Assembly (NCBI RefSeq): GCF_001748145.1
Contig: NZ_BCQA01000001.1
Span: 1,671,501-1,735,500, forward strand
Direction of reading: 5' to 3'
Length of the DNA stretch: 64,000 bases
Origin: Bosea sp. BIWAKO-01
GTDB taxonomy: Bacteria > Pseudomonadota > Alphaproteobacteria > Rhizobiales > Beijerinckiaceae
The translations under genes and the position numbers were made by a program. The notes under the pieces were generated by a model, which saw only the letters and a program-made list of their open reading frames with translations, did no database searches and had not been told where the DNA came from. Below, piece after piece: positions 8,852 through 26,739 of this stretch (position 1 is its first letter; each line of letters begins with the position of its first letter).

Positions 8852-9898
8852 TCAGACCAGGGCCGGGCTGCCAGCCGCACCGATCGTCTGACCGAGATAG
8901 CTGCGCCCGAAGGTCTCCATCACGGTTGCTACCATGTTGCGGGCGACATGGAGCTGGTCTTCCTCGAAGGCGATGGCGCGCGGCGAGTTCAGGACGATCT
9001 CGTAGCTCGGGAAATAATCGACGAAATCGAAGCGCCGGTAGAGTTCCTCTGTGACGGCGCGCAGCACCGATTTCGAGGCACTGTTGGCCACGATGACATC
9101 GGCATCCTTGAACGTCGCTCCTAGCGGCACGGGCGAAACGGTGACGATGAAGCGCATCTCGGGATGGCAGTGCTCGCGGATCAGCGCAATCGTATCGAGC
9201 ATGTCGTTCAGGGTCGCCTCGTAACCGTAATCGACGAAACGGAAGCGCTCGGGCATGCGCGAGAGCCAGGTCGGGCCGGGATGGATGTTCATGGCGAGCC
9301 CGGTCTCGGAGTCGAGCCAGGTCTCGGTCAACCCGAGCGTGAAGAAGCAGATCCGCGCCTCCCTGATCCGCGCGGTCGCGGCCGTCAGGCGCTTGCGATT
9401 GGCAAGGGCGGTCTGCTGGTCGAGCAATCTCAGGCCGCTGGCATGGGGATCGAACCACTGGTCGGGCGCGAGCTCGATCAGCCCTTCGTTCGGATAGGGT
9501 TCGTCGAGCAGGACGCGCTTGAGCTCATGCGTCATGGACCGCACCGAGTACTTGTTGAGCGCGCCGCGACTCAAACTTCCACGCGCCGCACCGCCGCCGC
9601 GGCCCGTCGCCTCGTTCCAGCTCTCGAAATGCTCGGCGGGAACGCCGTGGCCTTCGAGCAGGAGCGACAGCCCACGCATCATCAGGACGTTCTCGACCTC
9701 GCGCGCGAAGCAGGAGCCCATCGTAAAAATCGGCCAGGCCGGATCGATCTGGAACTTCGGCTTATGCTCGACCGAGAGATAGTTGCCGGTCGTCAGCCGC
9801 TCCTTGGCCATGCGCTCGGGCTTGCCCGAGATCCAGCCGCGCACCGGATTGCCGCGCATGATCGTGAGCGCGGTGCCCGCGTCGTATTCGATCTTCAT
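8852..9898 (-). CDS. GSCFA-domain protein
   Basis: 348 residues. The family-defining FTMGSCFARE lies at about 58-67 and a second conserved block reads FFTLGLTETW. GSCFA proteins are predicted SGNH/GDSL-like hydrolases or acyl-modifying enzymes and are often found with polysaccharide genes; the Ser62-Cys63 neighbourhood would be the active site. No signal peptide, so it probably acts in the cytoplasm. The ATG at 9898 has a good CAGGAG site. It is the last gene of the glycan operon, separated by 145 bases from the pyruvyl transferase, the only sizeable gap in the series. A role in decorating the polymer is inferred from position. Confidence 0.75.
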   Translation of the reverse strand: MKIEYDAGTALTIMRGNPVRGWISGKPERMAKERLTTGNYLSVEHKPKFQIDPAWPIFTMGSCFAREVENVLMMRGLSLLLEGHGVPAEHFESWNEATGRGGGAARGSLSRGALNKYSVRSMTHELKRVLLDEPYPNEGLIELAPDQWFDPHASGLRLLDQQTALANRKRLTAATARIREARICFFTLGLTETWLDSETGLAMNIHPGPTWLSRMPERFRFVDYGYEATLNDMLDTIALIREHCHPEMRFIVTVSPVPLGATFKDADVIVANSASKSVLRAVTEELYRRFDFVDYFPSYEIVLNSPRAIAFEEDQLHVARNMVATVMETFGRSYLGQTIGAAGSPALV

Positions 9899-10043
9899 GG
9901 TCTGCTCCTGCCGCTCCTGGCCGTCGACACCTTGCCGCCGGCCTTTTTCAGGGTGTTCAGTTCAGGCGCCCCCATAGCTTACGCGCTGCGGCGAAGCTCG
10001 CCCTCGCCCTTCAATAATCAGGGTTCAGGACAACGGGTCAGCC

Positions 10044-11453
10044 TCACATCCGGTGGGGGGCGCCGTTCCTGTCGAGGAAGTCACGCATGCGGTCGTAGGA
10101 GGCGGCATAGCTCTTCGCGAGCGTGTTGAGCTGAGCTTCCTGATAGACAGCTCGCCACCCGCCTTCGGCGAGGGCGGACTCCGGTACGACAGGGATCTTC
10201 AGGGTCTCGGCCAGTTCCTGGCTGCGCGTGTCATAGGCGACGAGTACGCCCGGCACGCCCTGCGCCACCGCCGGCAGCACGCCGTGGACGCGGTAGCCGA
10301 CCGCGAGATCGAGCCCCTGAGCAAATGCGTCATAGCGCTCGACATCGAAGAAGGTGAAAAGCTGCTTCTCGTAGATCCGGCGCATCGCCGCATCATCGGA
10401 GCCACTCCACCAGCCCGTGTGAACGAACTCGGCAACGGCCTTCTCCATCGCCTTCTCGTCGCGCAGGAAGAAGGCTTTCTCCTCCTGCTCGCCATGCGAA
10501 GACATCACCATCTCGCTCTGGCGATCGACCTTGAGAAGCGCGGCCTTCTGGTTGCGCAGATAGGCTTCCGGGTCGGCGGTATAGCTCTTGTCCGCCTCGC
10601 GCCTGAGGCTGAAGGCGACCTTGCGGATCTCGCGCTGGTCTGGAACCCGGATGGCGAGATCGCGCTTGCGGGTCCGAAAGATCGAGGGGCAGCCGACCAC
10701 GTCGACATTGCGAATGCCGTTATGGCGCAGCGTCTCGGCGCTGAAGGCGCCGCGTACGCCAATGGCGGCGCAGCGGTCGGAAACGATCTGCCAGAACCGC
10801 TTCGAGGCGTCCGGCAGTTCAATGGCGCGGTTCTGGCTCGCCTGCGCGCCGACACCGATGGCGTAGACCGGCAGCTTGACCTTCTCCAGCACCTCGACGG
10901 CACGGAACCACTCCATTTTTTCATGGATGAAATTCGAGCCGCGGACGAAGACGTAGTCGAACTCGCTGGCATAGCGCTCGATATCGGCCTCCATCGGATT
11001 CATGATCTTCATCGGCTCGAGATGCGCATAGCGCAGAAGCTTGAGCGTCGAGTCGAAGACGATCATGTCGCCGATGTTGAAATAGTCGGAGAGCAGCTTC
11101 TCCATCGGTGCCCGGTACCAGCGCACCTTGTCGTGCTCGTAGACCTCGCCGGCCGGGTAGATCACCAGTGCGCGCAGCTTTTTCTCGGTCGCGATCGGGG
11201 CGAGGCCCGAGCCGGGCGCGATCTTGCCGCTCTCGGCATCAAGCACCGCGATCTCGCGCGGCCGACCGTCGGCGAGCCTGGGCAGCGGGATGGTGAGCTC
11301 GGCAACGGCCGCGTCGCCGGTTATCACCGCGCCCGGCAGGATCGTCGCATAATCCTGACCGTCCAGCCGCAGGCGCAGCGCCGGCCAAGCCCCATCGGGA
11401 CGCTTCGCGACGGAGACGACGATCTCGTTCGTTGTGGCACGCAGAATTTTCAA
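10044..11453 (-). CDS. Polysaccharide pyruvyl transferase family protein with N-terminal extension
   Basis: 469 residues from a TTG at 11453 that overlaps the TGA of the upstream gene (TTGA), which decides the start; longer open frames run into the neighbouring gene. Residues 1-90 form a beta-rich extension. From about 94 (LRALVIYPAGEVYEHDKVRW) the protein aligns with the paralogue at 12628-13833, including FNIGDM, VRGSNFIHEKMEW, YAIGVGAQAS and VGYRVHGVLPA. The family transfers pyruvate from PEP to sugars as a ketal, giving acidic polysaccharides. Acceptor unknown. Confidence 0.75.
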   Translation of the reverse strand: MKILRATTNEIVVSVAKRPDGAWPALRLRLDGQDYATILPGAVITGDAAVAELTIPLPRLADGRPREIAVLDAESGKIAPGSGLAPIATEKKLRALVIYPAGEVYEHDKVRWYRAPMEKLLSDYFNIGDMIVFDSTLKLLRYAHLEPMKIMNPMEADIERYASEFDYVFVRGSNFIHEKMEWFRAVEVLEKVKLPVYAIGVGAQASQNRAIELPDASKRFWQIVSDRCAAIGVRGAFSAETLRHNGIRNVDVVGCPSIFRTRKRDLAIRVPDQREIRKVAFSLRREADKSYTADPEAYLRNQKAALLKVDRQSEMVMSSHGEQEEKAFFLRDEKAMEKAVAEFVHTGWWSGSDDAAMRRIYEKQLFTFFDVERYDAFAQGLDLAVGYRVHGVLPAVAQGVPGVLVAYDTRSQELAETLKIPVVPESALAEGGWRAVYQEAQLNTLAKSYAASYDRMRDFLDRNGAPHRM

Positions 11454-12628
11454 GGCTGGTCCTTCACGATGTGGATCTTGACGCGGACGAGGTCGCGCTC
11501 GGGACCGAGCTTGCAGTCCTTCACCCGCATCCGGGTCATGAACAGGAACGCCTCGTCCCCGGTCGTTTCGAAATTGCGCGAAGTGGAGTCGGGGTCGGCA
11601 ACCGCGCCATAGGCGTAGCGGGTCGTGTCCGCGCAGTTCTTGCTCCACATCGTCGGCTGCACGACGAGCGTCTGCAGCGGCGACCAGCGCAGCAGATCCG
11701 CGGACCAGCTATAGGCGACGCGGCCGCCCGCGATCCCCTGGCTGGGGTCGGGACCGAGATGGAGCACGGCCAGATAAAGTCCGCTCGGCTCGTGCTTGGT
11801 GACGGAGCCGACCGTGGTCGGCAGTCCCTTGAGCGGCTGGCAGGGCTTCGCCTGCGAGAGGTCCTCGCGATAGGGATCGACCGCGCGCACCGTGTAGTCG
11901 GTACCGTCAAAGGCCCGCCATGAGGCGGCGTCCTTGATGTCGGTGCTGCGGAACAGGCAAACACCACCCTTCTGGCCCTCGCCGCCGGTGGTCGCGATCA
12001 GCGCATACCAGGCGCCGTCCCGCTCGATGATGTTGGACGGGTTGAAGAACCCGCGATGGCGCCCCTGGCCGACATCCTGGCGGAAGGCGGGCGCGGCGAC
12101 GAGTTGGCGCGGCTCTGCGCTGAAATGGCGCCCGCCATCGGTCGAATGCGCGGCCGTCACGACATTGTACCAGCAGCTCATCCTGTCCTTGAAACGGCAG
12201 GCGGTGCCGTAGCGGTCGGCATGGTACTCCGCATGAACCAGCCCGAAGACGTCGCGACCGTCGCTGGTCCATGTCGCGGTGAGCCAGTTCTTGTCACTGA
12301 ACTCGCTCGGGTCGGGACTGCTCTTGGCCTCGTAGGAAACCGAACAGGAAATCCCGATCCGGTCGAGGCTGGGGCCGGCCATGGCGCGGTTGCGGTAATT
12401 GCTGGCGAAGGCGACCACCGCACCATTCTGATTGCGGAAGGCCCGCAATGGTGCGTCTGGAATATGCCATTCCTCGCAGCGCTGGCGCGACCAGGCGTAG
12501 ACGGTCTCCTCCATGGCGCCGGGAACGATCTCGACGCGATAGCCGGGAGCCTGCGCAAACGACAGGTGCGGAACGGCGAGCAGCGGCAAGGCCGCTAGCG
12601 TGGCCGCAAGGATGGTGCGTTCCGCCAT
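11450..12628 (-). CDS. Secreted beta-propeller-like protein, possible glycosidase
   Basis: 392 residues with a signal peptide (MAERTILAATLAALP to SFAQA, about 1-26). The mature part has repeated beta-strand/Asp patterns such as GFFNPSNIIERDGAWYAL and LYLAVLHLG and about six cysteines, resembling the five-bladed propellers of GH43/GH32-type enzymes and sialidases. Catalytic carboxylates cannot be assigned with confidence. Start and upstream stop overlap as TGATG, so it is coupled to the pyruvyl transferase before it; its own stop overlaps the next start. A secreted protein inside a sugar-transfer operon suggests trimming, binding or modification of the exported glycan. Confidence 0.55.
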   Translation of the reverse strand: MAERTILAATLAALPLLAVPHLSFAQAPGYRVEIVPGAMEETVYAWSRQRCEEWHIPDAPLRAFRNQNGAVVAFASNYRNRAMAGPSLDRIGISCSVSYEAKSSPDPSEFSDKNWLTATWTSDGRDVFGLVHAEYHADRYGTACRFKDRMSCWYNVVTAAHSTDGGRHFSAEPRQLVAAPAFRQDVGQGRHRGFFNPSNIIERDGAWYALIATTGGEGQKGGVCLFRSTDIKDAASWRAFDGTDYTVRAVDPYREDLSQAKPCQPLKGLPTTVGSVTKHEPSGLYLAVLHLGPDPSQGIAGGRVAYSWSADLLRWSPLQTLVVQPTMWSKNCADTTRYAYGAVADPDSTSRNFETTGDEAFLFMTRMRVKDCKLGPERDLVRVKIHIVKDQP

Positions 12629-13833
12629 CAGGCCACCTTTCGTTCGGCCTCGGGAATGGCGGGTGCGAGCGCCGCCCTGGGCGCCGGTGCGCGCATCTTG
12701 GTGTCGACCTTGTTCTCGACCAGGAAGTCGCGCATCGCGGCGTAGACCTGGGCGTAGGTCGTGTTGAAGCGGTCGAAGCGCGCCTGATCCCAATGCTCTT
12801 CCAGCCTGAAATCCTGGCCGGAGAAAACGTCGAAGCTCGGGATCTGGAAGGTCTCGGCGAACTCGACCGTGCGGCTGTCATAGGTGAAGTAGATCGAGGG
12901 CGTGCCGTTGGCGAGCGCCATCAGGTTGCCGTGCAGCCGGTAGCCAAGCACGAGATCGAGGCTGCGCACGAGATTCTCGTAGTCGGCAACCACGTCCGAA
13001 TAGAACATCCGGCCGCGATAGAGCGCCTCCATCGCCTCATCGAGGTACCAGGAGGTGGCCCACTCGTTCCGGCGCAGCGCCGCCATCGCCTCCTCCTTCT
13101 GCTCCGGTGTTCCCAGCGCGAGCTTCTTCTCCTCGATCTCGCCCTGCGCCATCAGCGTCGCCTCGAACCGGCCCGCCAGCGACTTCACGAGGTCGCGGTG
13201 GAAGGTGAGGTAGCGCTTGATGTCCTGCGCATAGGTCGGCGAGACCTCGCGCCGCAGCGTGATGCCGACCTTCTTCACGCTATCAAGTGCAGGCAACTTG
13301 ATCGCGAGATCCGGCTTGTTGGCGCGGAACGCCGTGGGACAGCCGATGATCCGGACATTCTTGATGCCGATCTCGTTGAGGATCTCGGCCGAATAGGTGC
13401 CGCGCACGCCGAGCGAGGCGGTCGAATCCGCCATCAGCCTGAGTACGGTCTTGGTGTCCTCGCTGAGCTCAAGCTTGCCGCTGACCGGAGCCTGCGCGCC
13501 AATGCCGAAGGCGATGACCGGAATCTTGAGCCGGCGCAGCACATCGGCCGTCTGGCTCCACTTCATCTCGGCGTGGACGTAGTTCGAACCGCGCAGGAAG
13601 ACGTAGTCGTATTCCGCATTCATCCGGTCGATCAGCGCCATGTCCGGATTGGCGATCGGCAGAACGTCGAGCTTCTCGAAATTCAGCAGCTTCAACGAAG
13701 AGTCGAAGACGAAGGCGTCGCCGATATTATGGTAGTGATTGATATGGCTCGCGAGGTCCGCGTGCCTGTACCAACGCACATTGTCATGGTCGTAGACCTC
13801 TCCCGACGGGATCATGACGAGGATGCGGGCCAT
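12628..13833 (-). CDS. Polysaccharide pyruvyl transferase family protein
   Basis: 401 residues beginning MARILVMIPSGEVYDHDNVRW. Conserved blocks are NIGDAFVFDSSLKLL, FLRGSNYVHAEMKW, FGIGAQAPVSGKL, GVRGTYSAEIL, IIGCPTAF and LGYRLHGNLMALANG, the last being the C-terminal sugar-nucleotide-like binding half. It predicts PEP-dependent pyruvyl ketal addition to a polysaccharide or glycolipid in the cytoplasm. The ATG at 13833 follows GGGGAGAC; an alternative ATG at 13875 overlaps the previous stop and would add 14 residues. It is a paralogue of the gene two places downstream, so two different sugar positions may be modified. Confidence 0.8.
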   Translation of the reverse strand: MARILVMIPSGEVYDHDNVRWYRHADLASHINHYHNIGDAFVFDSSLKLLNFEKLDVLPIANPDMALIDRMNAEYDYVFLRGSNYVHAEMKWSQTADVLRRLKIPVIAFGIGAQAPVSGKLELSEDTKTVLRLMADSTASLGVRGTYSAEILNEIGIKNVRIIGCPTAFRANKPDLAIKLPALDSVKKVGITLRREVSPTYAQDIKRYLTFHRDLVKSLAGRFEATLMAQGEIEEKKLALGTPEQKEEAMAALRRNEWATSWYLDEAMEALYRGRMFYSDVVADYENLVRSLDLVLGYRLHGNLMALANGTPSIYFTYDSRTVEFAETFQIPSFDVFSGQDFRLEEHWDQARFDRFNTTYAQVYAAMRDFLVENKVDTKMRAPAPRAALAPAIPEAERKVA

Positions 13834-13874: not shown

Positions 13875-15185
13875 TCAGGCGATCATTGGCGTGGCCGCGC
13901 GACTGGCCGGAACCGGCATGCCGCGCTGCTCGATCAGGCGCTGGTAAAGCGCGATATGCTGGGCTGCGCAGTCGATATGGGTGAGCGGCCGGGTGATCCC
14001 GGCGCGCAGGCGCGACCAGAGATCGGGCTCGCTCAGCGCACGGGTCATGCAGTCGACCAGGTCCTCCGAGCTGCCCGAGCGGAAATGCAGGCCGTTGACC
14101 TCGTCGACGATCTTTTCCGCCATGCCGCCGATATTGCTCGAAAGGATCGGGCGGCCATGGAAATAGGCCTCCTGGATCACGATCGGCGAGTTCTCCCACC
14201 AGACCGACGGCATCACCACCCAGTCGACCGAGCGCATCAGGTTCGGCATTTCATGGTTCTGGAAGGCACCGCAGAAGCGCACCCGCCGACCGGCATTCTC
14301 GACGAGCTCCGCGAACTTCTTCTTGTAGGCCTCGGGCTGGCGCTCGAGATTGCCGCCATAGACGAGCAGGATGGAATCCTCGCCCCAGACGGCTTCCGGA
14401 ATGCGGGTGACCGCGTCGATCAGCACATCGGCCCCCTTGTAGGGCGTGAGCTGGCCGAAATAGGCGAAGCGCGACCGCCGTGCTGCCTTGTCCGGCAAGG
14501 GCCGGGGCGGCGCGACCTCGGCAACGTCGATTCCGTTCTCGATCACCGAGAAGCGATCGGCCGAGAGGCCCCAATCCTGGTAGCGCTCGGCCAGGAAGCG
14601 GCTCGGCGAGATGAAATGATCGGCGAGATTGAGCATGCCCCGGATGAAGGTCTCGCGCGCCAGGAAGCGGCCGGGTGCGATATCCGGGAAGCAGGCATTG
14701 CAATCGGTCGGCGAAGCCCGGTAGCAGAGCTTGAAGGCACCGGTCTTCACCATCTGGCCGTGGTGATGGCAGATGCTGAGATATTCGTGGAAGGTCACCA
14801 CGATGAGAGCGTCGGGCAGCGTGTCCCGCACCGCGAACAGGCATTCGAGCCCGAGCCCGATGAAATGGTGGAAATGCACCACATCCGGCTTCAGATCGCG
14901 CAGCACGCGGACGAAATCGCGCTCGATCTCCTCGGTGTTCCGGTTCGAGAGCAGGAAGTGATCGTATTCCTCGGCGTAGTAGAGCAGCTCGCCGCCACGC
15001 TGGCGCAGGCTCATCAGCGCCGTGCCGGCATGGCGCGGCGTCGGCGAGCCGACACGGGCGAGGTAATGCGCGTCGAGGCCTTCGCTTGCCTGCAGGCCCT
15101 TGTGCAGGTTGTAGGAGGCGATTTCGGCGCCGCCGAGAGACAGGGTCGGGTGTCCATGGGACACGACGAGTACGCGCATCATCAT
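13875..15185 (-). CDS. GT4 family glycosyltransferase
   Basis: 436 residues, GT-B fold. The N-terminal GGAEIASYNLHKGL loop, central VIENGID and YFGQLTPYKGADVLIDA, and C-terminal PSVWWENSPIVIQEAYFHGRPIL carry the nucleotide-sugar binding site, with the E-x7-E pattern in ENSPIVIQE. A cysteine-rich insert (about 150-175) is shared with the GT4 enzyme at 18116-19369. Sugar and linkage are not predictable. ATGA overlap with the upstream gene gives the start at 15185. Confidence 0.85.
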   Translation of the reverse strand: MMMRVLVVSHGHPTLSLGGAEIASYNLHKGLQASEGLDAHYLARVGSPTPRHAGTALMSLRQRGGELLYYAEEYDHFLLSNRNTEEIERDFVRVLRDLKPDVVHFHHFIGLGLECLFAVRDTLPDALIVVTFHEYLSICHHHGQMVKTGAFKLCYRASPTDCNACFPDIAPGRFLARETFIRGMLNLADHFISPSRFLAERYQDWGLSADRFSVIENGIDVAEVAPPRPLPDKAARRSRFAYFGQLTPYKGADVLIDAVTRIPEAVWGEDSILLVYGGNLERQPEAYKKKFAELVENAGRRVRFCGAFQNHEMPNLMRSVDWVVMPSVWWENSPIVIQEAYFHGRPILSSNIGGMAEKIVDEVNGLHFRSGSSEDLVDCMTRALSEPDLWSRLRAGITRPLTHIDCAAQHIALYQRLIEQRGMPVPASRAATPMIA

Positions 15186-17365
15186 CCTCGCATGTTCGAA
15201 ACGGCCAGCGCCCAGCGACGGTCGAAGCTGGAGCGGTCGGCGAGCTGGGCAAGCGAGACCAGATGCGGCCGCGCCATCTCGCCATCATCGACGACGTAAA
15301 CCTCGACCTCCGGCACCCAGATCGAGGGGAAGCCGTTCATCCTGAGCTTCAGGCAGAGATCGAGGCCCTTTTCGGCCGTCGTGAAGTAGTTGCGGGCGAA
15401 GCCGCCCGCCTCGATGAAGGCCGCGCGCGACATCACGCAGCATTCGGTGGCGCCGGCCGCGACTTCCATCGGGCCGAGATTGCCGATCGCCTCCAGGGGA
15501 TAGCCGACGAAGCGGTTGAAGACGCGCCGGCTCGGCCCCTCCCCTTCCATCCAGGCGCCGGCCCAGCGGATCGAGTTGTCTTCGAAGAGCAGCGTCGGGC
15601 TCGCGACGCATTGTCCGCCGCGCGCCTTGAACGCGCGCTCAAGCCGGCCGAGCCAACCGGGCATGCGGATCTGCGCGGCCCCCGAGAGTAACGCGATGGT
15701 CTGGAAGCGGCAGGCGCGCGCGCCGGCCTCCATCGCGTCGCAGGCATCCTCGACCCCATCGACGAGCGCAAGCCGCACCGCGAGGCCGTAGAAGCGAGCA
15801 AGCCGGCGTGCCTCGGCACCGACCCGGTCGAAGCTCTCGCCGGGGACCGCGAGCACGATCGGCACCGGGCGTATCTCGGGGTCGATCGCGAGCAGGGCAA
15901 AGAGCGAGGAGAGCTCGCGCTGGCGATGGTCGAGGCCGATCACCAGCCCCAGATTCGCATCGGCCTTGAAGGCGCCGATGTCGAAGGTCTCGATCACGCG
16001 CGGCGGGGCGATCTCGGCGGCTTGCAAGGCGGGAGCGATCTGGCGTTCGACCACCGAGGCTGCGGTCGAGGATTTCGGATCAAGCAGCGCGAAGACGCGC
16101 TCGAGCGTGCGCCGCGGCTGGCCGCGCCCGGCCTCCAAAGGCAGGAAGGCAGGGCCGGATCCCTCGATCTCGAACTCGAGATAGAGCGGCTGCCCGGGCT
16201 CGGGCGTGAGCTTCGGTGCGAAGACGATGAAGCCGTGACTGTTGCGCCGGCCGCCGAGCATATGCGCAAAGCGTGGGTCGCCTGCAAAGGCATCGGCGAC
16301 GTCCGGACGCGACACGCGTGTCCAGACGCGGTCGAGCACGCAGGACTGGCTTCCGGAGCGCAGGGTCACCGCGCTGACATGGCGGTCCGGATCGAACAGC
16401 CAGCCGATGATCAGCGTGCCGGTGCCCTCCACGATGGTCGCGTCGTCGATGCCGGCCCGCACCGGCGCCTCCAGCAATGCAACCGTGTCGCGGCCATCGA
16501 AGCGCTGCGAGGCACGCCGGAGCTTGTCCGACGTCGCTTGTGGCGCGCTGCCGCGCTGCAGCCCGTCTCGCAAATGACCGGGAACCGTGATCGGTTCGAG
16601 CAGGACATGGCGCTCATAGACATCGAGCGCGCGCCAGCCATCCGTGGCGCGGAAGAACAGACGCTCGATCTCGCTGGGATGGCGGATCTGGCATTCTTCG
16701 AGCAGGCCGAAGAAGCCCCGCGCGCCGTCGGCAAGATCGTCACGCTCGAAGGTTCCTGCCTCCAGAACGGCGAAGGACAGCCCGCCATGGGCGATCAGCA
16801 GCTTGGTCCGGCCTGCCGAGAAATCGGAGGTCCAGCCCTGAATGAAAACGCCGTCGTCGATCGGCCCCATGACCTCGACGAAGCCGCCGGGCTTGGCGAT
16901 CGACTGGAGCAGCATCGAGGCAGCACGCAGGCGGCGCGGATTGGGTTTTCCGGCGAGCAGGATCTCCAGGAGCCCGTCGACAACCATTGGGAAAGCCTGC
17001 CCCGAATCCTCGGCAAGGCCGGCAAGGAAGGATTGCAGCGGCAGCGGCTTCGACGCCAGCACGAGGCGCAGCGGCCGGCCGGGACGACCGAGCAGCAGGG
17101 CGCCGGAGCCGGATCGGTCGGTCGCGGGCGCAGGTGCGAGGCAAAGGAAGCCGATGGCTGCCGGGGCCTCGGCCTGCGGCCGGCGCCAGGTCAGCGCCAT
17201 GGTCTCGGCCTTGTTGCGCGGATTGCCGTCGACGGCGACAGGCACCTTGCCCGGCATCGCGTCGCAGGTGCTCATGATCAGGATGGCGTTCTCGCCGAGC
17301 GGCGTCCAGGCGACGGTCGGCGCCGGGCTGATCCGGGTCTGATCGGGGACGATCACTTCACTCAT
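15182..17365 (-). CDS. GT2-like glycosyltransferase with accessory domains and a lost DxD motif
   Basis: 727 residues. The C-terminal third (about 470-720) aligns with the GT2 domain of the protein at 20196-22472, but where that has NSD this has SGA (about 561-563, context ALLSGAAQI). The later E-x-x-LDLCLKLRMNG acceptor-site block is kept. Loss of the metal-binding aspartate suggests reduced or absent transferase activity. The middle holds two copies of a beta-domain marked by a GW pair (177-178 and 321-322). Start at 17365 lies 4 bases after the upstream stop; the stop overlaps the next start. Confidence 0.7.
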   Translation of the reverse strand: MSEVIVPDQTRISPAPTVAWTPLGENAILIMSTCDAMPGKVPVAVDGNPRNKAETMALTWRRPQAEAPAAIGFLCLAPAPATDRSGSGALLLGRPGRPLRLVLASKPLPLQSFLAGLAEDSGQAFPMVVDGLLEILLAGKPNPRRLRAASMLLQSIAKPGGFVEVMGPIDDGVFIQGWTSDFSAGRTKLLIAHGGLSFAVLEAGTFERDDLADGARGFFGLLEECQIRHPSEIERLFFRATDGWRALDVYERHVLLEPITVPGHLRDGLQRGSAPQATSDKLRRASQRFDGRDTVALLEAPVRAGIDDATIVEGTGTLIIGWLFDPDRHVSAVTLRSGSQSCVLDRVWTRVSRPDVADAFAGDPRFAHMLGGRRNSHGFIVFAPKLTPEPGQPLYLEFEIEGSGPAFLPLEAGRGQPRRTLERVFALLDPKSSTAASVVERQIAPALQAAEIAPPRVIETFDIGAFKADANLGLVIGLDHRQRELSSLFALLAIDPEIRPVPIVLAVPGESFDRVGAEARRLARFYGLAVRLALVDGVEDACDAMEAGARACRFQTIALLSGAAQIRMPGWLGRLERAFKARGGQCVASPTLLFEDNSIRWAGAWMEGEGPSRRVFNRFVGYPLEAIGNLGPMEVAAGATECCVMSRAAFIEAGGFARNYFTTAEKGLDLCLKLRMNGFPSIWVPEVEVYVVDDGEMARPHLVSLAQLADRSSFDRRWALAVSNMRG

Positions 17366-17369
17366 CGCA

Positions 17370-19369: not shown

Positions 19370-20199
19370 CGGCTGCGCTCCGGTTTGGTCGCGATCAGCA
19401 CGTCCTGGTAATGCGGTGCGTTGATGCCGCGCCAATGGCCGCGTCCAAGGCTCTCGACGAGCAGCCCGGCAGCTTGCGTCTGCGCGATCAGGAATTCCTC
19501 CTCGATGCCGGCGGCAGCAAGCGGTGCCTCCTCGATGGCGTACCAGCCCGGCCCCTCGCGCCAGCGCTTGAACTTCAGGCGCTCCTGTCCGGTCGGCTGC
19601 CCGTCAATGGCGAAGGCGGTGAGGAACAGGCGCCCTCCCGGCGCAAGCAGGCGACAAGCTTCCTTGAGGTAGACGGTCAGTTCTTCCGGCGGCAGATGCG
19701 TCGCCACCGAGACCATCGTGATGAAATCGAAGCTCTGGTTCGCGAAGCCGAAGGCGACTTCGGTACCGGGCAGCGAGCCCTGCGGATTGTAGAGGGGATG
19801 GGCGATGTCGAGCCGCTGAAAGCGGAAGCGCGGGTAGACCGGCGTGATCGTCTGGGCACACCAGAGGATGCCGTCCATCACGGGGTCGACCCCGTCGTAG
19901 CTCGCCTTCGACGGATCGAGATACTGCGTCAGCGGCACCGCCATGCGGCCGATGCCACAGCCGATGTCGAAGACACGCTCCGTCGGCTGCAAGCGGCCGA
20001 TCCGGACGTAGTGACCCAGGAATTCCGCGCCGATCTCGCGGTAGTCGCCGTCACCGACAAAGATGTTCTCGGCCGGCGGATGCGGCAGGAAGCGGTTGGT
20101 GCGGATATGGTCGAGCAGCCAGTCGAATTCCTTGCCGGGAGGGTTGAGGATCGCGCCCGGACCGGGCTCGGTGGGACGCAGTGCCAGGGTCGCCGTCAT
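19366..20199 (-). CDS. SAM-dependent methyltransferase (class I)
   Basis: 277 residues. Motif I is RVFDIGCGIGRMAVPL, followed by YDGVDPVMDGILWC and SFDFITMVSVATHLPPEEL. The C-terminal part LLAPGGRLFLTAF completes the Rossmann-like fold. Position within a glycan operon suggests O-methylation of a sugar, or capping of the chain, but the acceptor is not shown. Both ends overlap neighbouring genes by ATGA, so translation is coupled. Confidence 0.8.
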   Translation of the reverse strand: MTATLALRPTEPGPGAILNPPGKEFDWLLDHIRTNRFLPHPPAENIFVGDGDYREIGAEFLGHYVRIGRLQPTERVFDIGCGIGRMAVPLTQYLDPSKASYDGVDPVMDGILWCAQTITPVYPRFRFQRLDIAHPLYNPQGSLPGTEVAFGFANQSFDFITMVSVATHLPPEELTVYLKEACRLLAPGGRLFLTAFAIDGQPTGQERLKFKRWREGPGWYAIEEAPLAAAGIEEEFLIAQTQAAGLLVESLGRGHWRGINAPHYQDVLIATKPERSR

Positions 20200-22472
20200 G
20201 CAGCGTTTGCCCTCCTGAGGACGGTACGGGGAAGAATTTCGGCGTCGCGCGCGGGCGCCGCCTTGCGTGGCAAAGCCGATTCATCGGCCATCAACGCATC
20301 GATCTGGGCATCCCAGCGGCTCGTCTGCAGCCAGGCATTGTGCTGCGAGGCGACGCCGCGGGTGTAGTCCAGGCTCTTCGAGATCGACTGGCGCTCGAGA
20401 TGATAGAGCGCGACGGACGGCACATATTTGATGCCGAAGCCGGCCTGCCGGATCTTCAGGCAGAGGTCGCTATCCTCGTAGTCGCCGATGACATAGCTGT
20501 CGTCGAAGCCACCCACCTCGTTGAAGAGCGAACGCGGCAACATGATGCAGGCGCCGGTGACGCCCGGTACGAGCCGCTCGACATTGGCGGGCCCATAGCT
20601 GCCCGGCATGCCCTTGAAGTAATGATGGTTGAGCCAGACGCCGTGACGGTCCCGCTTGAAGAGGAGGCCGGCATGCTGCAGCGAGCCGTCGTCATAGAGC
20701 AGTTTGGGCCCGACGGCGCCGACACGCCCGCGCCGGTCGAGCTTGCGCGCCAGCGCGGGCAGCCAGCCGGCCTCGCTTGGGATCACATCCGAATTGACCA
20801 TCGCGAGCACATCGCCACGCGCCGCCTCGGCCCCGGCATTGCAGGCGGCCGAGAAGCCGCCATTGCGGCCCATCACCACAAGCTGGATCGGCAGGCCATA
20901 GGCGAGATGCAGGCCGCCGAGCAGATGCGCGACCTCAGCCTCATGCTCGGGGGAATCGAGCACATAGATCAGCTCGGCCTTCTCGACGAACCAGGGATCG
21001 GCTGCAAAGGCCGACACCTGGATCCGCAGGAAGTCATAGACGCGGTAGAGCGGGATCACGACCGAGACACCCGGCCGGTCCGGCAGGGTGCCGATTGTCC
21101 GCAGCCGCGGCTCCGGCAGGCTGTCGCGCAGCGCGGACTGGCACGCGGCAAGCACCGGCGCGAGGCTCTGCTGCAGGATTTCAGCCGTGAGGTGCTGCGG
21201 CGGGATTGAGGCCAGGGCCCGGGCGCGGATGGTCGCGATGTCGGCGGGCTGCGGCGCCGGGCGCAGGAAAAGCGTGGTCCCCGATCTCAGCTTCAGCTCG
21301 CAGCGCGGCTGCAGGACAGGAGCGCCGCCGGCATAGTCGGGCACGAGCCCGAGGAAGCCGGTCACGGCCCGGTTGTCGCCGCCGGGCTCGGCCATCAGGG
21401 CCGGGAATCGCGCGATCCGGTCGCCGATCGGGCTCGGCGCGCCTGTGCTGCGATGGATGAGGATCTGATCGAGCAGACCGTCCGAATCGCGGTACCAGCC
21501 ACCGAGCAGCAGGCCGGCAGGGGTCGAGACCGCGAGATCGAGTTCCGCCGAGGGCAGGTCGTCGCGACGACGGACGCTCTGGACCGGCAAGGGCAGTCGC
21601 CGCTGCATCTCGATCGCGAGCAGGCGGCCCTGTTCGGACTGGCCGGCCAGTTGCTCGACGAGCCAGCTGCGCAGATCGTCATGCTCGCTGGCCTTCCCGG
21701 CCCACCAGCGGCCGAGCGTCGGCGCCGTGGCACGTTCGGGAAGGGCGCGGACGATCAGCCCGACATCGCTGTGCAGGACGAGCAGCCCCGCTCCGCGCGG
21801 CTGGGGCTCATCGAGGATCAGGTGCAGCGAGCGGCGCGCGCTCCGGTCAGGTTTGCCGAGCCGCGGACGCGCGACGATGCGCGTCAGGCTTGCAGGGCCG
21901 AGCCAATAGGCGGCCTTGACGGCCTCCAGGCGCGCGGGCACCGAGGATTCGAGGAGAACCTTGCCTTCGGGAAGGGCTGCGACGGGCAGGACCGGTGTCG
22001 GCTTGCGCGACAAGGCGAGAAGGAACTGGCGCAGGAAGCCGAGATAGGCACTGGTCTCGCGCAGGCTGAACAGGGTCGGCCAGGTAGCGATCAGGGCGCT
22101 TGCAAGCGCAATTCTGGAGGCTGGCGTCAGTTCGCGCAGGATCTCGGGAGCCTCCGCCATCGCATGGACGAATTCGGGGTCGAAGGAGACGGCCTGATCC
22201 GGACCGAGATTGCCGCCGGACAAGGTCGCAATGATCTCGTCATGGCCGGTATGCCGGAACACCGAAACGATCCGGGTGCGCCCGTCGCCAAGCCCCAGCG
22301 TAAGCGAGGCTGAGGAGACCCGTCGCTCCCGGCTTGCCAGCGAAACCACCTGCCGATCAGCAAGCGGGCCATCGAGGCTCCAGCTCAGCAGGAACACCGA
22401 GCCGCCGAGCCGCAGCAACTCGGGATTGGAGCTTTGATCGCCGGCCAAGTGGCTGGGCGTGATCGTCAACAT
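20196..22472 (-). CDS. GT2 family glycosyltransferase with N-terminal accessory domains
   Basis: 758 residues. The GT-A domain (about 465-735) has VSVVIPLYRVYDFLRIQ, the NSD metal site at 560-562 (AMVNSDVIP), PGVTGACIML and the GDYEDSDLCLKIRQAG acceptor block, so it appears active. Before it lie two beta-rich regions; one carries a GW pair near 325-326 like the other accessory domains of the operon. It is the first gene of the coupled glycan operon, 60 bases after the RTX gene and across a 13-bp hairpin. The ATG at 22472 has only a weak binding site. Confidence 0.8.
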   Translation of the reverse strand: MLTITPSHLAGDQSSNPELLRLGGSVFLLSWSLDGPLADRQVVSLASRERRVSSASLTLGLGDGRTRIVSVFRHTGHDEIIATLSGGNLGPDQAVSFDPEFVHAMAEAPEILRELTPASRIALASALIATWPTLFSLRETSAYLGFLRQFLLALSRKPTPVLPVAALPEGKVLLESSVPARLEAVKAAYWLGPASLTRIVARPRLGKPDRSARRSLHLILDEPQPRGAGLLVLHSDVGLIVRALPERATAPTLGRWWAGKASEHDDLRSWLVEQLAGQSEQGRLLAIEMQRRLPLPVQSVRRRDDLPSAELDLAVSTPAGLLLGGWYRDSDGLLDQILIHRSTGAPSPIGDRIARFPALMAEPGGDNRAVTGFLGLVPDYAGGAPVLQPRCELKLRSGTTLFLRPAPQPADIATIRARALASIPPQHLTAEILQQSLAPVLAACQSALRDSLPEPRLRTIGTLPDRPGVSVVIPLYRVYDFLRIQVSAFAADPWFVEKAELIYVLDSPEHEAEVAHLLGGLHLAYGLPIQLVVMGRNGGFSAACNAGAEAARGDVLAMVNSDVIPSEAGWLPALARKLDRRGRVGAVGPKLLYDDGSLQHAGLLFKRDRHGVWLNHHYFKGMPGSYGPANVERLVPGVTGACIMLPRSLFNEVGGFDDSYVIGDYEDSDLCLKIRQAGFGIKYVPSVALYHLERQSISKSLDYTRGVASQHNAWLQTSRWDAQIDALMADESALPRKAAPARDAEILPRTVLRRANAA

Positions 22473-22496
22473 GGCGCAGATTCCGACTGAAGGGGG

Positions 22497-22525
22497 GCGA
22501 CGCCGGCCGGAGCGGCCGGCGTCGC
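22497..22525 (-). terminator. 13-bp stem-loop between the RTX gene and the glycan operon
   Basis: GCGACGCCGGCCG (22497-22509) pairs perfectly with CGGCCGGCGTCGC (22513-22525) around a 3-base loop. Read on the minus strand it follows the RTX stop and is followed by C-rich sequence, not a U-run. It may be a partial terminator or an RNA-stabilising 3' hairpin that lets the RTX message outnumber the operon message. Confidence 0.6.
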
Positions 22526-22532
22526 GAGGTCG

Positions 22533-23327
22533 TTACGCGACGGTGAAGTAGGAGTTCGGATCGCTCTGGACGTCCTCGGCGCTGACGCCGACGAGGGTGA
22601 GCGTGTCGCCATTGCCGAGATCGACGACGGCGTTGCCGTTGACCGACGTCGTGCGCGCGGCGACGTCCTCGGCCGAGGACACGCCGGTGCCGTTGATGTC
22701 GGATGCGATCTGCAGCATGTCGTGGCCGGCTTCGAAATCGAGAACGAGATCGTTGCCGCCGCCGCCGTCGAAGACGAAGACGTCACTACCGGCGCCGCCA
22801 TGCAGGATGTCGTTGCCGGCACCGCCGAAGAGCAGATCATCGCCAGCGCCACCCTGAAGGATGTCGTTGCCATCACCGCCCATGAGCACGTCGGTGCCGT
22901 CGCCGCCCTGCAGCACGTCGTTGCCGGCGCCACCCTGAAGGATGTCGTCGCCAGGACCGCCCTGCAGGATGTCGTTGCCCTCACCGCCGAGCAGGACATC
23001 ATCGCCGTCATTGCCGCGCAGGATGTCGTCGCCCGCTCCGCCGGAGAGGATGTCGTTGCCTTCGCCGCCGAAGAGCGCGTCATTGCCCTCGTCGCCGGAC
23101 AGGATGTCGTCACCCTGGCCGCCGAAGAGGATATCGTTGCCTTCGCCGCCGAAGATCGCGTCGTTGCCGCCATCTCCGAAAAGCAGGTCGTTACCCTCTT
23201 CGCCGAACAGCGTGTCGACGCCGTTGCCGCCCTTGACGATGTCGTCTCCGGCTCCGGCGTGGATCACGTCGCTGAACCGGCTACCGATCAAGAAGTCGTC
23301 GAACGCGCTGCCTTCTATCGTGGCCAT
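22533..23327 (-). CDS. RTX calcium-binding repeat protein, predicted type I secreted
   Basis: 264 residues. A short lead (MATIEGSAFDDFLIG) is followed by 18 uninterrupted nonapeptides of the GGxGxDxLx type (residues 25-186), then FVFDGGGGNDLVLDFEAGHD and a C-terminal region ending SYFTVA. The repeats fold into a calcium-loaded beta-roll after secretion; type I signals lie at the C-terminus and are not cleaved. The exporter genes are immediately upstream on the same strand. The ATG at 23327 has a near-perfect AGGAGGTGA site, so upstream extensions are rejected. There is no enzyme domain, so a structural, adhesive or surface-layer role is inferred. Confidence 0.85.
   Translation of the reverse strand: MATIEGSAFDDFLIGSRFSDVIHAGAGDDIVKGGNGVDTLFGEEGNDLLFGDGGNDAIFGGEGNDILFGGQGDDILSGDEGNDALFGGEGNDILSGGAGDDILRGNDGDDVLLGGEGNDILQGGPGDDILQGGAGNDVLQGGDGTDVLMGGDGNDILQGGAGDDLLFGGAGNDILHGGAGSDVFVFDGGGGNDLVLDFEAGHDMLQIASDINGTGVSSAEDVAARTTSVNGNAVVDLGNGDTLTLVGVSAEDVQSDPNSYFTVA
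22770..23255 (-). repeat. 18 tandem 27-base units encoding RTX nonapeptides
   Basis: 486 bases of in-frame 27-base repeats. The units differ at the base level but keep the Gly-x-Gly-x-Asp pattern. Such arrays can change copy number by recombination. Confidence 0.85.
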
Positions 23328-23638: not shown

Positions 23639-24994
23639 TCAGTCCTCCCGGAACGCCCGGTTGAAGCTCTCGGCGAAGGGGGCCAGCAAATAGTCCACGG
23701 CGCGCCGCGAGCCGTTCACGATCAGCACCTCTGCCGCCATGCCGGCATGAAGGGTGACCTTGTTCTGGGCGAGGCTCTCTGGCGTGATCTCGGCCCGGAC
23801 GATGAAATAGGCGACGCCGGTCTTCTCATCGACAAGCTGGTCGGCAGCGACATAGGTCACCTTCGAGATCAGAGGCGGCATCAGCCGCGCATTGAAGGCG
23901 GTCAGGCGCACCCGCGTCTCGGCACCGAGCTTGACTGAGTCGATGTCGCGCGGATCGACCTTGGCCTCGACGATCAGGGGCTCGCGCTCGGGCACGATGT
24001 CGAGAATGGCCTCCCCGGCGGCAATCGCACTTCCGGCGGTCCGCGCCCGGATATTGGCGACGATACCCTCCTGCGGGGACATGACCACAAGGCGGCGCAG
24101 CACGTCCTCAGCCTGAACGATGCGCTCGACCACCTCGGACAAGGCGAGCTGGCTATCCTGCAGATCCTTGGCGATCTCGTTTTGCCGTTCGAGGCCGAGC
24201 GAGGTGATCTCGAGCTGCGCGCCGGCGACCGCCTGCTCCGCCTTGGCCTTGCGGGCCGCGGCTTCGCCACTGCGCCCGGCAAGCTCGCTCTGCTTGGTCT
24301 GGAGTTCGACGAGCTGGCTGCGCTTGGCATAGCGCTTCTCGTAGAGGTCCCCGACCACGCGGACCTCCTCGTCGATCAGGCTACGCTGAAAGCGCGTCGC
24401 CTCGATCTGGGCCTGAAGCGCCTCGGTCTCGGCCTGATGCTGCTCGATGACACGCTTCTGGATGCTGATGCGCCCGTCATAGACCTGGGTGCGCGCCTGG
24501 AAGAGCTTGCGTTCCGCTCTGATGACCTCCTGCGCGATCGGCGTTCCCGCCATCTTGAGATCATCGGGAAAGTCGATCTCCGTCGCGTTGTTCTGCTCGG
24601 CGCGCAGCCGGGCCAGCCTGGCCTCGAAGCCGACGCGCTTGCCGTGGAGTTGCTGCAGCTCGGCGCGGGCACGTGCGTCCTCGAGCCGTAGCAGGGGCTC
24701 ATCCTTGACGACGCGGTCCCCTTCAAGCTTGAGCAGCATCTTCAGGACCCCGCCCTCGAGATGGCTGACGGTCTTGCGCTTGCTGTCGACCACGACGGTA
24801 CCGACCGCGACGGCAGCATTGTCGAGCCTTGCCGTCACCGCCCAGGCCCCGAAGCCGCCGAAGCCGATCGCGATCGCGCTGACGCCGGCCAGCACGAGAT
24901 TGCGCAGCGAGGGCATCCGCTCCTCCGGCTCCTCGACGGGGGTGACCGGGACGAGCGCGCGGCTCATGCTCATGGGGGCTGGGAGCTTGCTCAT
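23639..24994 (-). CDS. HlyD-family type I secretion adaptor
   Basis: 451 residues. One N-terminal membrane helix (about 31-52, NLVLAGVSAIAIGFGGFGAW) is followed by a biotinyl-lipoyl half (VAVGTVVVDSKRKTVSHLEGG), long coiled-coil hairpins (about 95-300) and a beta-barrel end with PEREPLIVEAKVDPRDID. This is the PrtE/HlyD class that bridges the inner-membrane ABC exporter to an outer-membrane TolC-like channel across the periplasm. No TolC gene is in the window. ATGA overlap with the ABC gene fixes the start at 24994. Its likely cargo is the RTX protein encoded next. Confidence 0.9.
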   Translation of the reverse strand: MSKLPAPMSMSRALVPVTPVEEPEERMPSLRNLVLAGVSAIAIGFGGFGAWAVTARLDNAAVAVGTVVVDSKRKTVSHLEGGVLKMLLKLEGDRVVKDEPLLRLEDARARAELQQLHGKRVGFEARLARLRAEQNNATEIDFPDDLKMAGTPIAQEVIRAERKLFQARTQVYDGRISIQKRVIEQHQAETEALQAQIEATRFQRSLIDEEVRVVGDLYEKRYAKRSQLVELQTKQSELAGRSGEAAARKAKAEQAVAGAQLEITSLGLERQNEIAKDLQDSQLALSEVVERIVQAEDVLRRLVVMSPQEGIVANIRARTAGSAIAAGEAILDIVPEREPLIVEAKVDPRDIDSVKLGAETRVRLTAFNARLMPPLISKVTYVAADQLVDEKTGVAYFIVRAEITPESLAQNKVTLHAGMAAEVLIVNGSRRAVDYLLAPFAESFNRAFRED

Positions 24995-26739
24995 GCCGTC
25001 ACCTCGCGGGGCTTGCTCGCGCCGGTCTGCGGCTTGGGTTCGATTTCGACGAGACCACCAGGCGTGATCATGCCGGCGATCGCGGAACGCGGTCCGAACT
25101 GGGCGATCCTGCCTTCGCGCAGCACCAGGATCTTGTCGACGATCTGCATCACCGAGGGGCGATGCGCGATCAGGATGACCATGGCACCGCCGTCGCGTGC
25201 GGCATTGATGGCGCGGATCAGGCTTTGTTCGCCTTCCGCATCGAGATTGGCATTGGGCTCGTCCAGCACCAGCAGGCGCGGCGCGCCGTATAGCGCCCGG
25301 GCGAGGCCGATACGCTGGCGCTGGCCGCCCGAGAGCTTGAAGTCGCCGTCATTGACGTTCGTGTCGTAGCCGAGCGGCATGCGCCCGATCAGCTCATGCA
25401 CGCCGGCAGTCCGGGCGGCCTCGAGAATGGCCTGCGGCTCCGGAACACGCATCCGGGCGATATTGTCGGCGATGGTACCGTTCAGCAGCGAGACCGATTG
25501 CGGCAGATAGCCGACCATGGCGCCGAAGGAGGCGCGCTCCCAGAGATAGACATTGTGACCGTCGAGATAGACGCCGCCGACATTCGGCTTGAGAACCCCG
25601 ACGAGCAGTCGCGCCAGAGTCGATTTGCCGGCTCCAGACGGGCCGACGATGCCGAGCACCTCGCCCGGCGACAATGAGAACGAGACACTCTTGATGACCG
25701 TCTGCTCGGCACCGGTCGGAGCGTAGACGACGCGGTCGATCACCAGATCGCCCTGGGTCGGTGGATTGGCGGTGGTCTGGCGCCGTGACGAGCCGAGCAG
25801 CAGCAGATCGCGAACGCGCTTCCATGCGGCGGCCGCGAGCACCCATTGCCGCCAGTCGGAGATCATCGAATCGAAAGGCGCCAGCAGGCGGCCGAGCAGG
25901 ATGCTCGCCGCCATCAGCGTGCCCACCGAGACTTCGTTCTTGATGATCAACGTGGCACCGGTCGCATAGATCGCGAGCTGCATCGTCATGCGCGAGGCGC
26001 GGGTCACGGCTGCAATCAGTTTGCCGCGGCGCGTGCCGAGATCGAGCAGCTCGATCATCGCCACCTGCTTGCCGCGCCAGCGCCTGGCCAGAGCCGGCAG
26101 CATGCCCATGGCCTCGATCGTCTCGGCGTGCCGCAGGCTGGCCCCGACATCATTGATACTGGCGACGCCTTCTTCGTTGGCCTCCTTCAGCACGCGGCGC
26201 GTCAGCACGTCGGAGAGCACGCCGAGCATCAGCAATATGACCAGCGAGATTGCACCTACGAGCCCGTAAACCGGGTGGAAGGCGAAGAGCACGGCAAGGA
26301 AGATCGGCGACCAGGCCGCCTCGAGCGGCGTCGCGATGGCCGAGCTCGCAATGAAATAGCGGATATCGTTCAGGTCGCGAATCGCCTGGGTGGCCTGGGC
26401 CGAGCCCTGTTCGAGCGAAGCACTGACGGCCGCTTCCAGCGCCGGCAGATTGAGGCGCCGGGCGAAGCCGCTCGCCATGGTCTGGAAGGTCAGGGAGCGA
26501 ATGAACTCGATGACGCCGTAGAGAACGAGACCTGCGATCGCGATCACCAGCAGCATGGTGAGCGTGTCGAAGCTGCGGCTGACGATGACACGGTCCTGTA
26601 CCTGCACCATGAACATCGGCACGGTCAGCAACAGGATGTTGACGCAGAAACTCAGGAAGGCCGCATAGGCAAGGCCACCGGCAAAGGAGCGCTGCAGTTC
26701 ACGGATCAAACCATCGGGCGCCGAGGCTGCGACCTTCAT
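24991..26739 (-). CDS. Type I secretion system ABC transporter (PrtD class)
   Basis: 582 residues. Membrane helices near 22-42, 61-81, 145-175 and 255-285 are followed by an ATPase domain with Walker A GPSGAGKS (366-373), signature LSGGQ (469-473), Walker B LLVLDEPNANLD and H-loop His526. There is no N-terminal C39 peptidase or peptidase-like domain, as expected for exporters of the PrtD class whose substrates carry C-terminal signals. It forms an operon with the HlyD-type adaptor. The promoter lies in the AT-rich gap to the divergent MarR gene. Confidence 0.9.
   Translation of the reverse strand: MKVAASAPDGLIRELQRSFAGGLAYAAFLSFCVNILLLTVPMFMVQVQDRVIVSRSFDTLTMLLVIAIAGLVLYGVIEFIRSLTFQTMASGFARRLNLPALEAAVSASLEQGSAQATQAIRDLNDIRYFIASSAIATPLEAAWSPIFLAVLFAFHPVYGLVGAISLVILLMLGVLSDVLTRRVLKEANEEGVASINDVGASLRHAETIEAMGMLPALARRWRGKQVAMIELLDLGTRRGKLIAAVTRASRMTMQLAIYATGATLIIKNEVSVGTLMAASILLGRLLAPFDSMISDWRQWVLAAAAWKRVRDLLLLGSSRRQTTANPPTQGDLVIDRVVYAPTGAEQTVIKSVSFSLSPGEVLGIVGPSGAGKSTLARLLVGVLKPNVGGVYLDGHNVYLWERASFGAMVGYLPQSVSLLNGTIADNIARMRVPEPQAILEAARTAGVHELIGRMPLGYDTNVNDGDFKLSGGQRQRIGLARALYGAPRLLVLDEPNANLDAEGEQSLIRAINAARDGGAMVILIAHRPSVMQIVDKILVLREGRIAQFGPRSAIAGMITPGGLVEIEPKPQTGASKPREVTA

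Follow-up and report, generated by a model that had tools for sequence, protein, structure and literature searches.

What does a bacterium make with a gene run that places an RTX calcium-binding protein and a type I exporter directly before ten glycan-related genes? The question is raised by a 64-kb stretch of the Bosea sp. BIWAKO-01 genome (contig NZ_BCQA01000001.1, positions 1,671,501 to 1,735,500), here called the window, whose numbering is used throughout. A Pfam/TIGRFAM profile scan of its proteins found, on the minus strand from 26739 down to 8852, a PrtD-type ATP-binding cassette (ABC) ATPase, an HlyD adaptor, the RTX protein and the ten further genes. A sequence-only reading had taken the run for a new surface-layer system. 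It turned out to be homologous instead to the wge/wgd/wgg/wgc exopolysaccharide genes of Sinorhizobium meliloti, and we consider it very probable that the locus is a Bosea variant of the S. meliloti galactoglucan (exopolysaccharide II, EPS II) locus, that it comprises the core half wgcA-wggR-wgdAB-wgeA-G and that it works as inferred from S. meliloti. The observations behind this assignment are homology, gene order, operator-like sites, joint occurrence of the genes and the lack of any multi-span membrane protein in the core besides the exporter.

A 45-kb stretch of S. meliloti 1021 pSymB, which contains the galactoglucan genes, served as reference for a comparison of 25 proteins from the window. 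Eleven window genes were found collinear with wgcA-wggR-wgdAB-wgeA-G at 35-60% protein identity. The pSymB stretch carried no gene labels; names were taken from gene order and reviews, those of WgeC, WgeE and WgeF from order alone. On the plus strand, divergent from the run, lie the counterparts of the MarR-type regulator WggR (ExpG; 27080..27700; 49% over 147 amino acids; MarR_2, 6.8e-12) and, beside it as in S. meliloti, of the family 4 glycosyltransferase (GT4) WgcA (ExpC; 27649..28887; 50% over 415 amino acids; Glyco_trans_4_3, Glycos_transf_1). The WgcA open reading frame (ORF) overlaps the MarR ORF by 52 bases, and its start possibly lies downstream of 27649. All remaining genes are on the minus strand. 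The exporter pair consists of the type I ATPase/permease WgdA (ExpD1; 24991..26739; 59% over 555 amino acids; TIGR01842, 592.9 bits at a cut-off of 510) and the HlyD-type adaptor WgdB (ExpD2; 23639..24994; 50% over 452 amino acids; TIGR01843, 321 bits). It stands beside the WgeA-type RTX gene (ExpE1; 22533..23327; 52% over 263 amino acids; HemolysinCabind, 1.8e-53 for a longer ORF). The homologues of wgeB to wgeG follow in order: a family 2 glycosyltransferase (GT2) with a long N-terminal region (WgeB, ExpE2; 20196..22472; 41% over 624 amino acids), an S-adenosylmethionine-dependent methyltransferase (WgeC, ExpE3 by gene order; 19366..20199; 51% over 251 amino acids; Methyltransf_23), a GT4 enzyme (WgeD, ExpE4; 18116..19369; 57% over 411 amino acids), a 249-amino acid protein with one C-terminal membrane span by hydropathy (WgeE, ExpE5 by gene order; 17370..18119; 37% over 208 amino acids), a degenerate GT2-like protein (WgeF, ExpE6 by gene order; 15182..17365; 35% over 700 amino acids) and a further GT4 enzyme (WgeG, ExpE7; 13875..15185; 60% over 423 amino acids).

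Start codons were chosen from frame overlaps and upstream sequence. All genes named by the sequence-only reading were present on the minus strand; its interval, 8852-26739, holds them and omits the MarR and WgcA-type genes, which belong to the locus and extend it to approximately 8.85-28.9 kb. Overlaps of 1-4 bases, which it had seen as the usual joint, were confirmed at 8 of the 10 junctions within the blocks PrtD-HlyD and GT2 to the last gene, or at 7 if pyruvyl transferase 1 starts at 13833 and not at 13875. The two other junctions are gaps of 4 bases (17366-17369) and 145 bases (9899-10043). The RTX gene itself is set apart by 311 bases from the HlyD gene and by 60 bases from the GT2 gene.

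Do these genes belong together in other genomes as well? The WgeD protein was the sole query for finding loci, which were read together with flanking sequence of at most 10 kb; 312 loci were confirmed, and the 80 most similar in WgeD formed the named set. Presence was scored as a tblastn match over bit cut-offs that we set ourselves for each gene. RTX protein, HlyD, PrtD, GT2, methyltransferase, WgeD, WgeE, WgeF and WgeG were present in all 75 named loci of at least 19 kb, with the RTX gene directly before the GT2 gene in 75/75, a count which is conditioned on a close WgeD by the ranking. Five loci shorter than 19 kb were left out; with them the count is 77/80, the misses L079, L086 and L087 being short or cut. 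Bosea thiooxidans DSM 9653 and B. lathyri DSM 26656 belong to the strains whose records contain the locus. A strain labelled Bosea sp. has a WgeD-type enzyme 96% identical to the window's, and one locus (L060, Bosea sp. 67-29) shows two WgeD-like matches in a row, at 74% and 69%, pointing to a duplication or a frameshifted gene.

Using a cut-off of 1e-60, WgeD was matched in 20 of 387 class-level and 28 of 397 order-level genomes, own genome included, and the neighbourhood was read for every other genome with a match. This sampled set excludes the Bosea loci L151-L153 and includes second places (L150, L178) of genomes already counted. For its 27 non-Bosea loci with WgeD at 360 bits or more, RTX stood directly before GT2 in 27/27, with PrtD in 26/27 and HlyD in 25/27; L131 and L142 reach a contig end. 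In the order-level sample, the 76-amino acid RTX C-terminus (E of 1e-20 or less) and WgeD (at least 460 bits) hit an identical set of 19 of the 397 genomes, always at a mutual distance of 3.1-3.3 kb. Both cut-offs were set after a gap had been seen in each list; they leave out weaker RTX matches in G781, G800 and G544, an extra site in G007 and nine genomes in which WgeD-like matches reach 218-360 bits. The two 397-genome samples agree in size, tallies and the genome identifiers listed and were taken as one. Thus RTX, exporter and glycan genes do form one locus, as had been proposed, and an occurrence of the RTX gene and the glycan genes apart in most relatives, named beforehand as contrary evidence, was not observed. 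We are aware of the fact that common descent links the loci, so that they cannot be counted as independent events. Across 100 loci, the identity distances of exporter and glycan genes gave matrices that correlated at r 0.88-0.97, a value that rises with plain vertical descent too. In distant Alphaproteobacteria (L131-L178) the order is reshuffled; several keep RTX directly before GT2 despite a moved or missing exporter or WgeF/G. The RTX-GT2 pair may be the oldest unit.

The second line of evidence comes from the promoters. A review reports that S. meliloti WggR recognises palindromes upstream of wgaA, wggR/wgdA and wgeA (PMC3233446). Allowing one mismatch at most, TTCRAAANTYGAA occurs in the 45-kb pSymB stretch only at 28858 (wgdA/wggR), 30885 (wgaA) and 25466 (wgeA, with one mismatch), the three targets named in that review. 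In the 64-kb window it occurs only at 26925-26937 (minus strand, one mismatch), between exporter and regulator genes as in S. meliloti, and at 23559-23571 (plus strand, perfect) upstream of the RTX gene. The latter is the only perfect match in the whole genome (7.33 Mb, two contigs), while a reversed control pattern had no match there. An earlier consensus, TTCAAAANTTGAA, was given up for its weaker signal: one or none of 40 shuffles was as good in 48/110 exporter and 24/110 RTX upstream regions.

Sites with at most one mismatch to TTCRAAANTYGAA were then counted within 300 bases upstream of genes in the named loci together with S. meliloti and S. americanum. They were found before the exporter in 64/77 and before the RTX gene in 50/79 loci, where first-order Markov shuffles gave approximately 1.2 and 1.9; control promoters gave 2/79 (GT2), 0/80 (methyltransferase), 0/79 (WgeG) and 0/79 (adaptor). 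The corresponding values for the class- and order-level samples were 11/30 and 8/31, with 0.3 and 0.4 expected, and 0/46, 0/33, 0/31 and 1/30 for the same controls. From the nucleotide sequence, these operator-like sites would put exporter and RTX gene under the WggR-type regulator. A perfect 13-bp hairpin without a T run lies directly behind the RTX stop codon (22497..22525, minus strand), and perfect stems of at least 9 pairs and differing sequence follow the RTX gene in 43/110 loci (0.2 expected from mononucleotide shuffles). Such a hairpin would fit more RTX product than enzyme.

What kind of protein is the RTX gene product? Its start was placed at the ATG at 23327 behind a good ribosome-binding site, giving 264 and not 313 amino acids. 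The description as a repeat-only protein held for the repeats, 19 nonapeptide-like units counted from residue 24 on, and missed a C-terminal secretion domain. Both termini are common to the Bosea and S. meliloti proteins (MAT[IL]EG at the N-terminus, DLGxGDTxTLVxxxAxDxQ...YFTV at the C-terminus), and a PDB sequence search gave nothing but RTX-repeat proteins among the 27 matches listed. ExpE1 (WgeA) is reported to bind calcium and to be secreted by ExpD1/ExpD2, with expD mutants blocked in EPS II (PMC1403797), and a S. meliloti tolC mutant is described as lacking galactoglucan through lack of WgeA secretion (PMC2912261). The calcium dependence proposed by the sequence-only reading is reasonable. 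RapA2 and RapD of Rhizobium leguminosarum likewise bind calcium, are secreted by a type I system and bind exopolysaccharide, RapD affecting polymer length (PMC9298526); in contrast, the Rap proteins are cadherin-like and not RTX proteins, and the sections of that source dealing with them describe no linkage to polysaccharide genes. Kaistia and relatives (L078, L083, L085, L086, L156, L159-L162) carry a larger RTX-like ORF of 596-678 amino acids downstream of pyruvyl transferase 1. The genome holds ten PrtD-type matches over the cut-off, nine of them outside the locus. Five are near-equal at 647.4-648.5 bits (C1 416281, 4797348, 5114390, 6025601 and 6341980), with an open frame of 602 codons in four and 593 in one, which suggests that a type I secretion cassette has been multiplied.

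By analogy with S. meliloti, the locus would then work as follows. The WggR-type MarR regulator would control both the exporter/RTX and the glycan genes. The type I exporter with a TolC-like duct would secrete the small RTX protein, which would fold on calcium outside the cell. Cytoplasmic glycosyltransferases would build an acidic exopolysaccharide, to whose sugars two pyruvyl transferases would add pyruvate ketals. The secreted RTX protein would be needed to finish or release the polysaccharide; loaded with calcium, it might pair with the negatively charged chains on the cell surface. A secreted propeller protein might trim or modify the polymer. For Bosea, secretion of the RTX protein by this exporter, pyruvylation, polymer composition and the role of the RTX protein are inferred.

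How the polymer crosses the membrane is less evident. A hydropathy scan of the Bosea core marked WgdA as its only multi-span membrane protein, with one span each in HlyD and WgeE and one borderline segment in WgcA. In S. meliloti the scan covered the wga side and the gene after wgeG; none of the nine wga-side proteins, nor the post-wgeG gene product, showed more than one segment. Pfam models for flippase, polymerase and synthase had no match in the locus or the S. meliloti proteins scanned. The absence of a polymerase and of a Wzx or ABC glycan exporter, already seen by the sequence-only reading, therefore holds for the locus by Pfam and simple hydropathy scan, as does that of a synthase, and no Wzx/Wzy, ABC or synthase system could be assigned to it. 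Outside the locus, the genome contains four PF02397 priming-transferase and five Wzy_C matches as candidate housekeeping partners. One could imagine that the WgdAB-TolC apparatus is itself the exit route of the exopolysaccharide or part of it. WgeB, WgeD and WgeG would finish the polymer in the cytoplasm on a WgeF/WgeE scaffold, and it would leave with the RTX protein, whose folding outside would pull or cap the chain. We regard this detailed model as speculative and rather unlikely.

WgeF is a concrete new lead in this context, being a conserved pseudo-enzyme. Its relationship to WgeB extends over most of the sequence (hhalign E 9e-44, 583 columns). Of the aligned WgeB rows, 110/110 have an NSD motif, and the ED pair is conserved in 110 and 109. 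In WgeF, 2/104 rows have D at the aspartate position of NSD, and the Bosea protein has KG in place of ED. Lacking the catalytic motifs of WgeB, WgeF is likely a non-catalytic partner. Its structure model (pLDDT 85, pTM 0.66) has a GT-A fold at the C-terminus, for which the nearest PDB folds were polypeptide GalNAc-transferases, with low TM-scores. A literature search on the names ExpE6/WgeF showed no rhizobial paper among the matches listed, and an earlier report of the degeneracy is possible.

Behind wgeG the Bosea run continues on the minus strand with four genes. Pyruvyl transferase 1 (PvT1; 12628..13833; 401 amino acids; alternative ATG at 13875; PF04230, 2.2e-25) is followed by a putatively secreted beta-propeller of glycoside hydrolase/sialidase-like fold (11450..12628), pyruvyl transferase 2 (PvT2; 10044..11453; 469 amino acids; TTG start; PF04230, 2.1e-24) and, as the last gene, a GSCFA-family protein (8852..9898; PF08885, 1.7e-47). 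PvT1 and PvT2 are the only PF04230 matches in the genome. A PvT1 counterpart was found in 64/80 named loci (36 of the 52 non-Bosea ones) and a propeller counterpart in 27/52 of the latter. Within the flanks covered, PvT2 at 400 bits or more and GSCFA at 300 bits were restricted to the Bosea-type loci (28/28 and 24/28, versus 0/52 others for both); in this set, L033-L060, some records carry the labels Rhizobiales, Beijerinckiaceae, Boseaceae and Methylobacterium. Accordingly, the loci of Chelatococcus, Microvirga, Kaistia, Azospirillum and others share the core order with PvT1 and differ by the lack of both PvT2 and GSCFA counterparts at these thresholds, and in Azospirillum the WgeE-like gene stands after PvT1. 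Some relatives carry a second pyruvyl transferase at 25-40% identity. PvT1 had no match in 10 of 37 genomes of the genus (own included), some of them incomplete assemblies, and G011 gave only a 38% match; the locus seems optional within the genus.

The AlphaFold model of the propeller (pLDDT 90.7) resembles lyase, sialidase, GH43 and GH62 propellers best (E 2e-6 to 1e-5; query-normalised TM-scores below 0.5). A hydrophobic N-terminus and six invariant cysteines fit its secretion, and a polymer-trimming enzyme would be the simplest guess. PDB sequence searches gave a best E of only 0.37 for the propeller profile and no match for PvT1. Beyond the GSCFA gene, at a distance of 1.5 kb, the window holds an SbmA/BacA-like ABC transporter (5427-7304, minus strand; PF06472, PF05992); the same run includes an LPG_synthase_TM protein (1687-2661) and an ABC protein matched twice by ATPase models (2884-4464).

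How far does the likeness to the EPS II cluster go? Shared are the eleven collinear homologues, the operator-like sites at the wgd/wgg and wge promoters and, on the S. meliloti side, the lack of a flippase or polymerase among the wga-side proteins scanned. Beyond wgcA, S. meliloti has a DUF6212 protein, a double glycosyltransferase, two pyruvyl transferases, a protein without Pfam match (N-terminus signal-like by eye, no call from the hydropathy scan) and dTDP-sugar genes, three by Pfam and a fourth ORF outside the scan. Bosea differs in having no adjacent wga operon with pyruvyl transferases and dTDP-sugar genes and no window match to the 325-amino acid pSymB gene after wgeG; its wge run is extended instead by two distant pyruvyl transferases, the propeller and the GSCFA protein. 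No sugar-nucleotide genes adjoin the locus, and dTDP-sugar genes were not searched for elsewhere in the genome. Searching for a linked wga operon with the S. meliloti proteins in the window and at a distant DUF6212 locus yielded only superfamily-level matches and an unlinked pair at 6.52 Mb of contig C1. The pair (L198 8275-12044) consists of a GT2 protein of 729 and a DUF6212 protein of 526 amino acids with a one-base overlap; it adjoins two long ORFs, both containing PATR repeats and one an autotransporter domain.

Several of our observations weigh against an EPS II-type locus in Bosea. For the wga genes, linked counterparts in the window exist only at superfamily level (pyruvyl transferase, glycosyltransferase), and the wgaA/wgaB-like pair at 6.52 Mb is unlinked and has no operator match. 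PvT1 and PvT2 are only 23-25% identical to the two S. meliloti pyruvyl transferases, so the glycan may not be galactoglucan. Approximately two thirds of the sampled loci have no operator-like site at one mismatch or less. Moreover, TTCRAAANTYGAA was refined on the same loci that were later counted; the locus counts are thus not independent, and the control promoters and the single genome-wide match are the better evidence. Where WgeD was weaker, RTX preceded GT2 in only 5/18 sampled loci. In S. fredii NGR234, a 35-kb stretch (L113, pNGR234b 802616-837755) contains counterparts of WgeF, WgeG and PvT1; exporter, adaptor, GT2, methyltransferase and WgeD are missing from it, and a weak RTX match (37%) lies on the other strand. 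The tail is thus separable from the core. The stretch could be what a decayed locus has left, or the tail could have a use of its own. Finally, the papers listed by a literature search held no data from Bosea on mutants, the secretome or polysaccharides. In EPS II, according to a review, 4,6-pyruvylated galactose alternates with glucose residues most of which are 6-O-acetylated (PMC3233446). With the wga genes unlinked, the pyruvyl transferases diverged and the tail rearranged, the Bosea polymer is probably a relative of galactoglucan and not identical to it.

Could RTX and exporter genes be neighbours of the glycan genes by history only? The glycan would then be handled by a housekeeping Wzx/Wzy system, and the RTX protein would be an independent adhesin or a NodO-like host signal. 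The PF02397 and Wzy_C matches outside the locus and the nine further PrtD-type exporters agree with this explanation. It is at odds with the joint presence, without exception among close WgeD matches in two samples, with the operator-like sites at both promoters and with the reported need of the S. meliloti polymer for exporter, RTX protein and TolC (PMC1403797, PMC2912261). Overall, we judge it unlikely.

Alternatively, the RTX protein might be the glycan acceptor, glycosylated by the cytoplasmic enzymes and carried out as a glycoprotein by the type I exporter. The RTX gene directly before GT2 in 75/75 and 27/27 loci and a core without other multi-span membrane protein would fit this, and the GT-A part of WgeF is nearest, in fold only and at low TM-scores, to polypeptide GalNAc-transferases. 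For S. meliloti EPS II, however, a free polymer built from disaccharide repeats is described (PMC1403797, PMC3233446), and type I export is believed to require that the chain is unfolded (PMC9298526), for which a bulky glycan would be a problem. We consider a glycoprotein quite improbable.

The sequence-only reading had assumed a calcium-dependent RTX surface layer held by a pyruvylated glycan, similar to RsaA or to SLH-bearing S-layer proteins. The linkage of RTX, exporter and core glycan genes would suit it, as would the hairpin, which may yield more RTX protein than enzyme. RsaA of Caulobacter has about 1000 amino acids and a separate anchoring part. The Caulobacter locus resembles ours in RTX repeats and type I secretion near glycan genes, and differs in RTX size, domain build and the kind of glycan genes: no large RTX protein with a cell-anchoring part was found in the Bosea locus, and repeats running from residue 24 to the secretion domain leave no room for a separate anchoring domain in its 264 amino acids. 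CsaB, which serves S-layer anchoring in Gram-positives, shares the superfamily PF04230 with the Bosea pyruvyl transferases, which reach only 32.2 and 33.5 bits with the CsaB model TIGR03609 (equivalog cut-off 213); no SLH partner was matched by Pfam among the locus proteins scanned, and no genome-wide SLH search was made. In view of these scores, the RTX size and domain build and the gene-by-gene homology to an exopolysaccharide cluster, the surface layer was discarded as highly improbable.

Taken as a variant of the EPS II locus, the apparent new surface-layer system becomes a member of a class-wide family of galactoglucan-type loci. A literature search, judged by titles and beginnings of abstracts and covering few subscription journals, showed no prior description of such loci outside rhizobia. 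The finding sharpens an old puzzle: the S. meliloti polymer is reported to need exporter, RTX substrate and TolC, yet no flippase, polymerase or glycan exporter was found among the genes analysed. Co-occurrence of RTX and glycan genes in close matches, like operators and a type I ATPase as sole multi-span protein make export or licensing of a polysaccharide by a protein secretion machine testable. If the rather unlikely export through the type I apparatus were true, it would be a polysaccharide secretion route besides Wzx/Wzy, ABC and synthase systems, passed on as a single unit in Hyphomicrobiales, Azospirillum and other Alphaproteobacteria.

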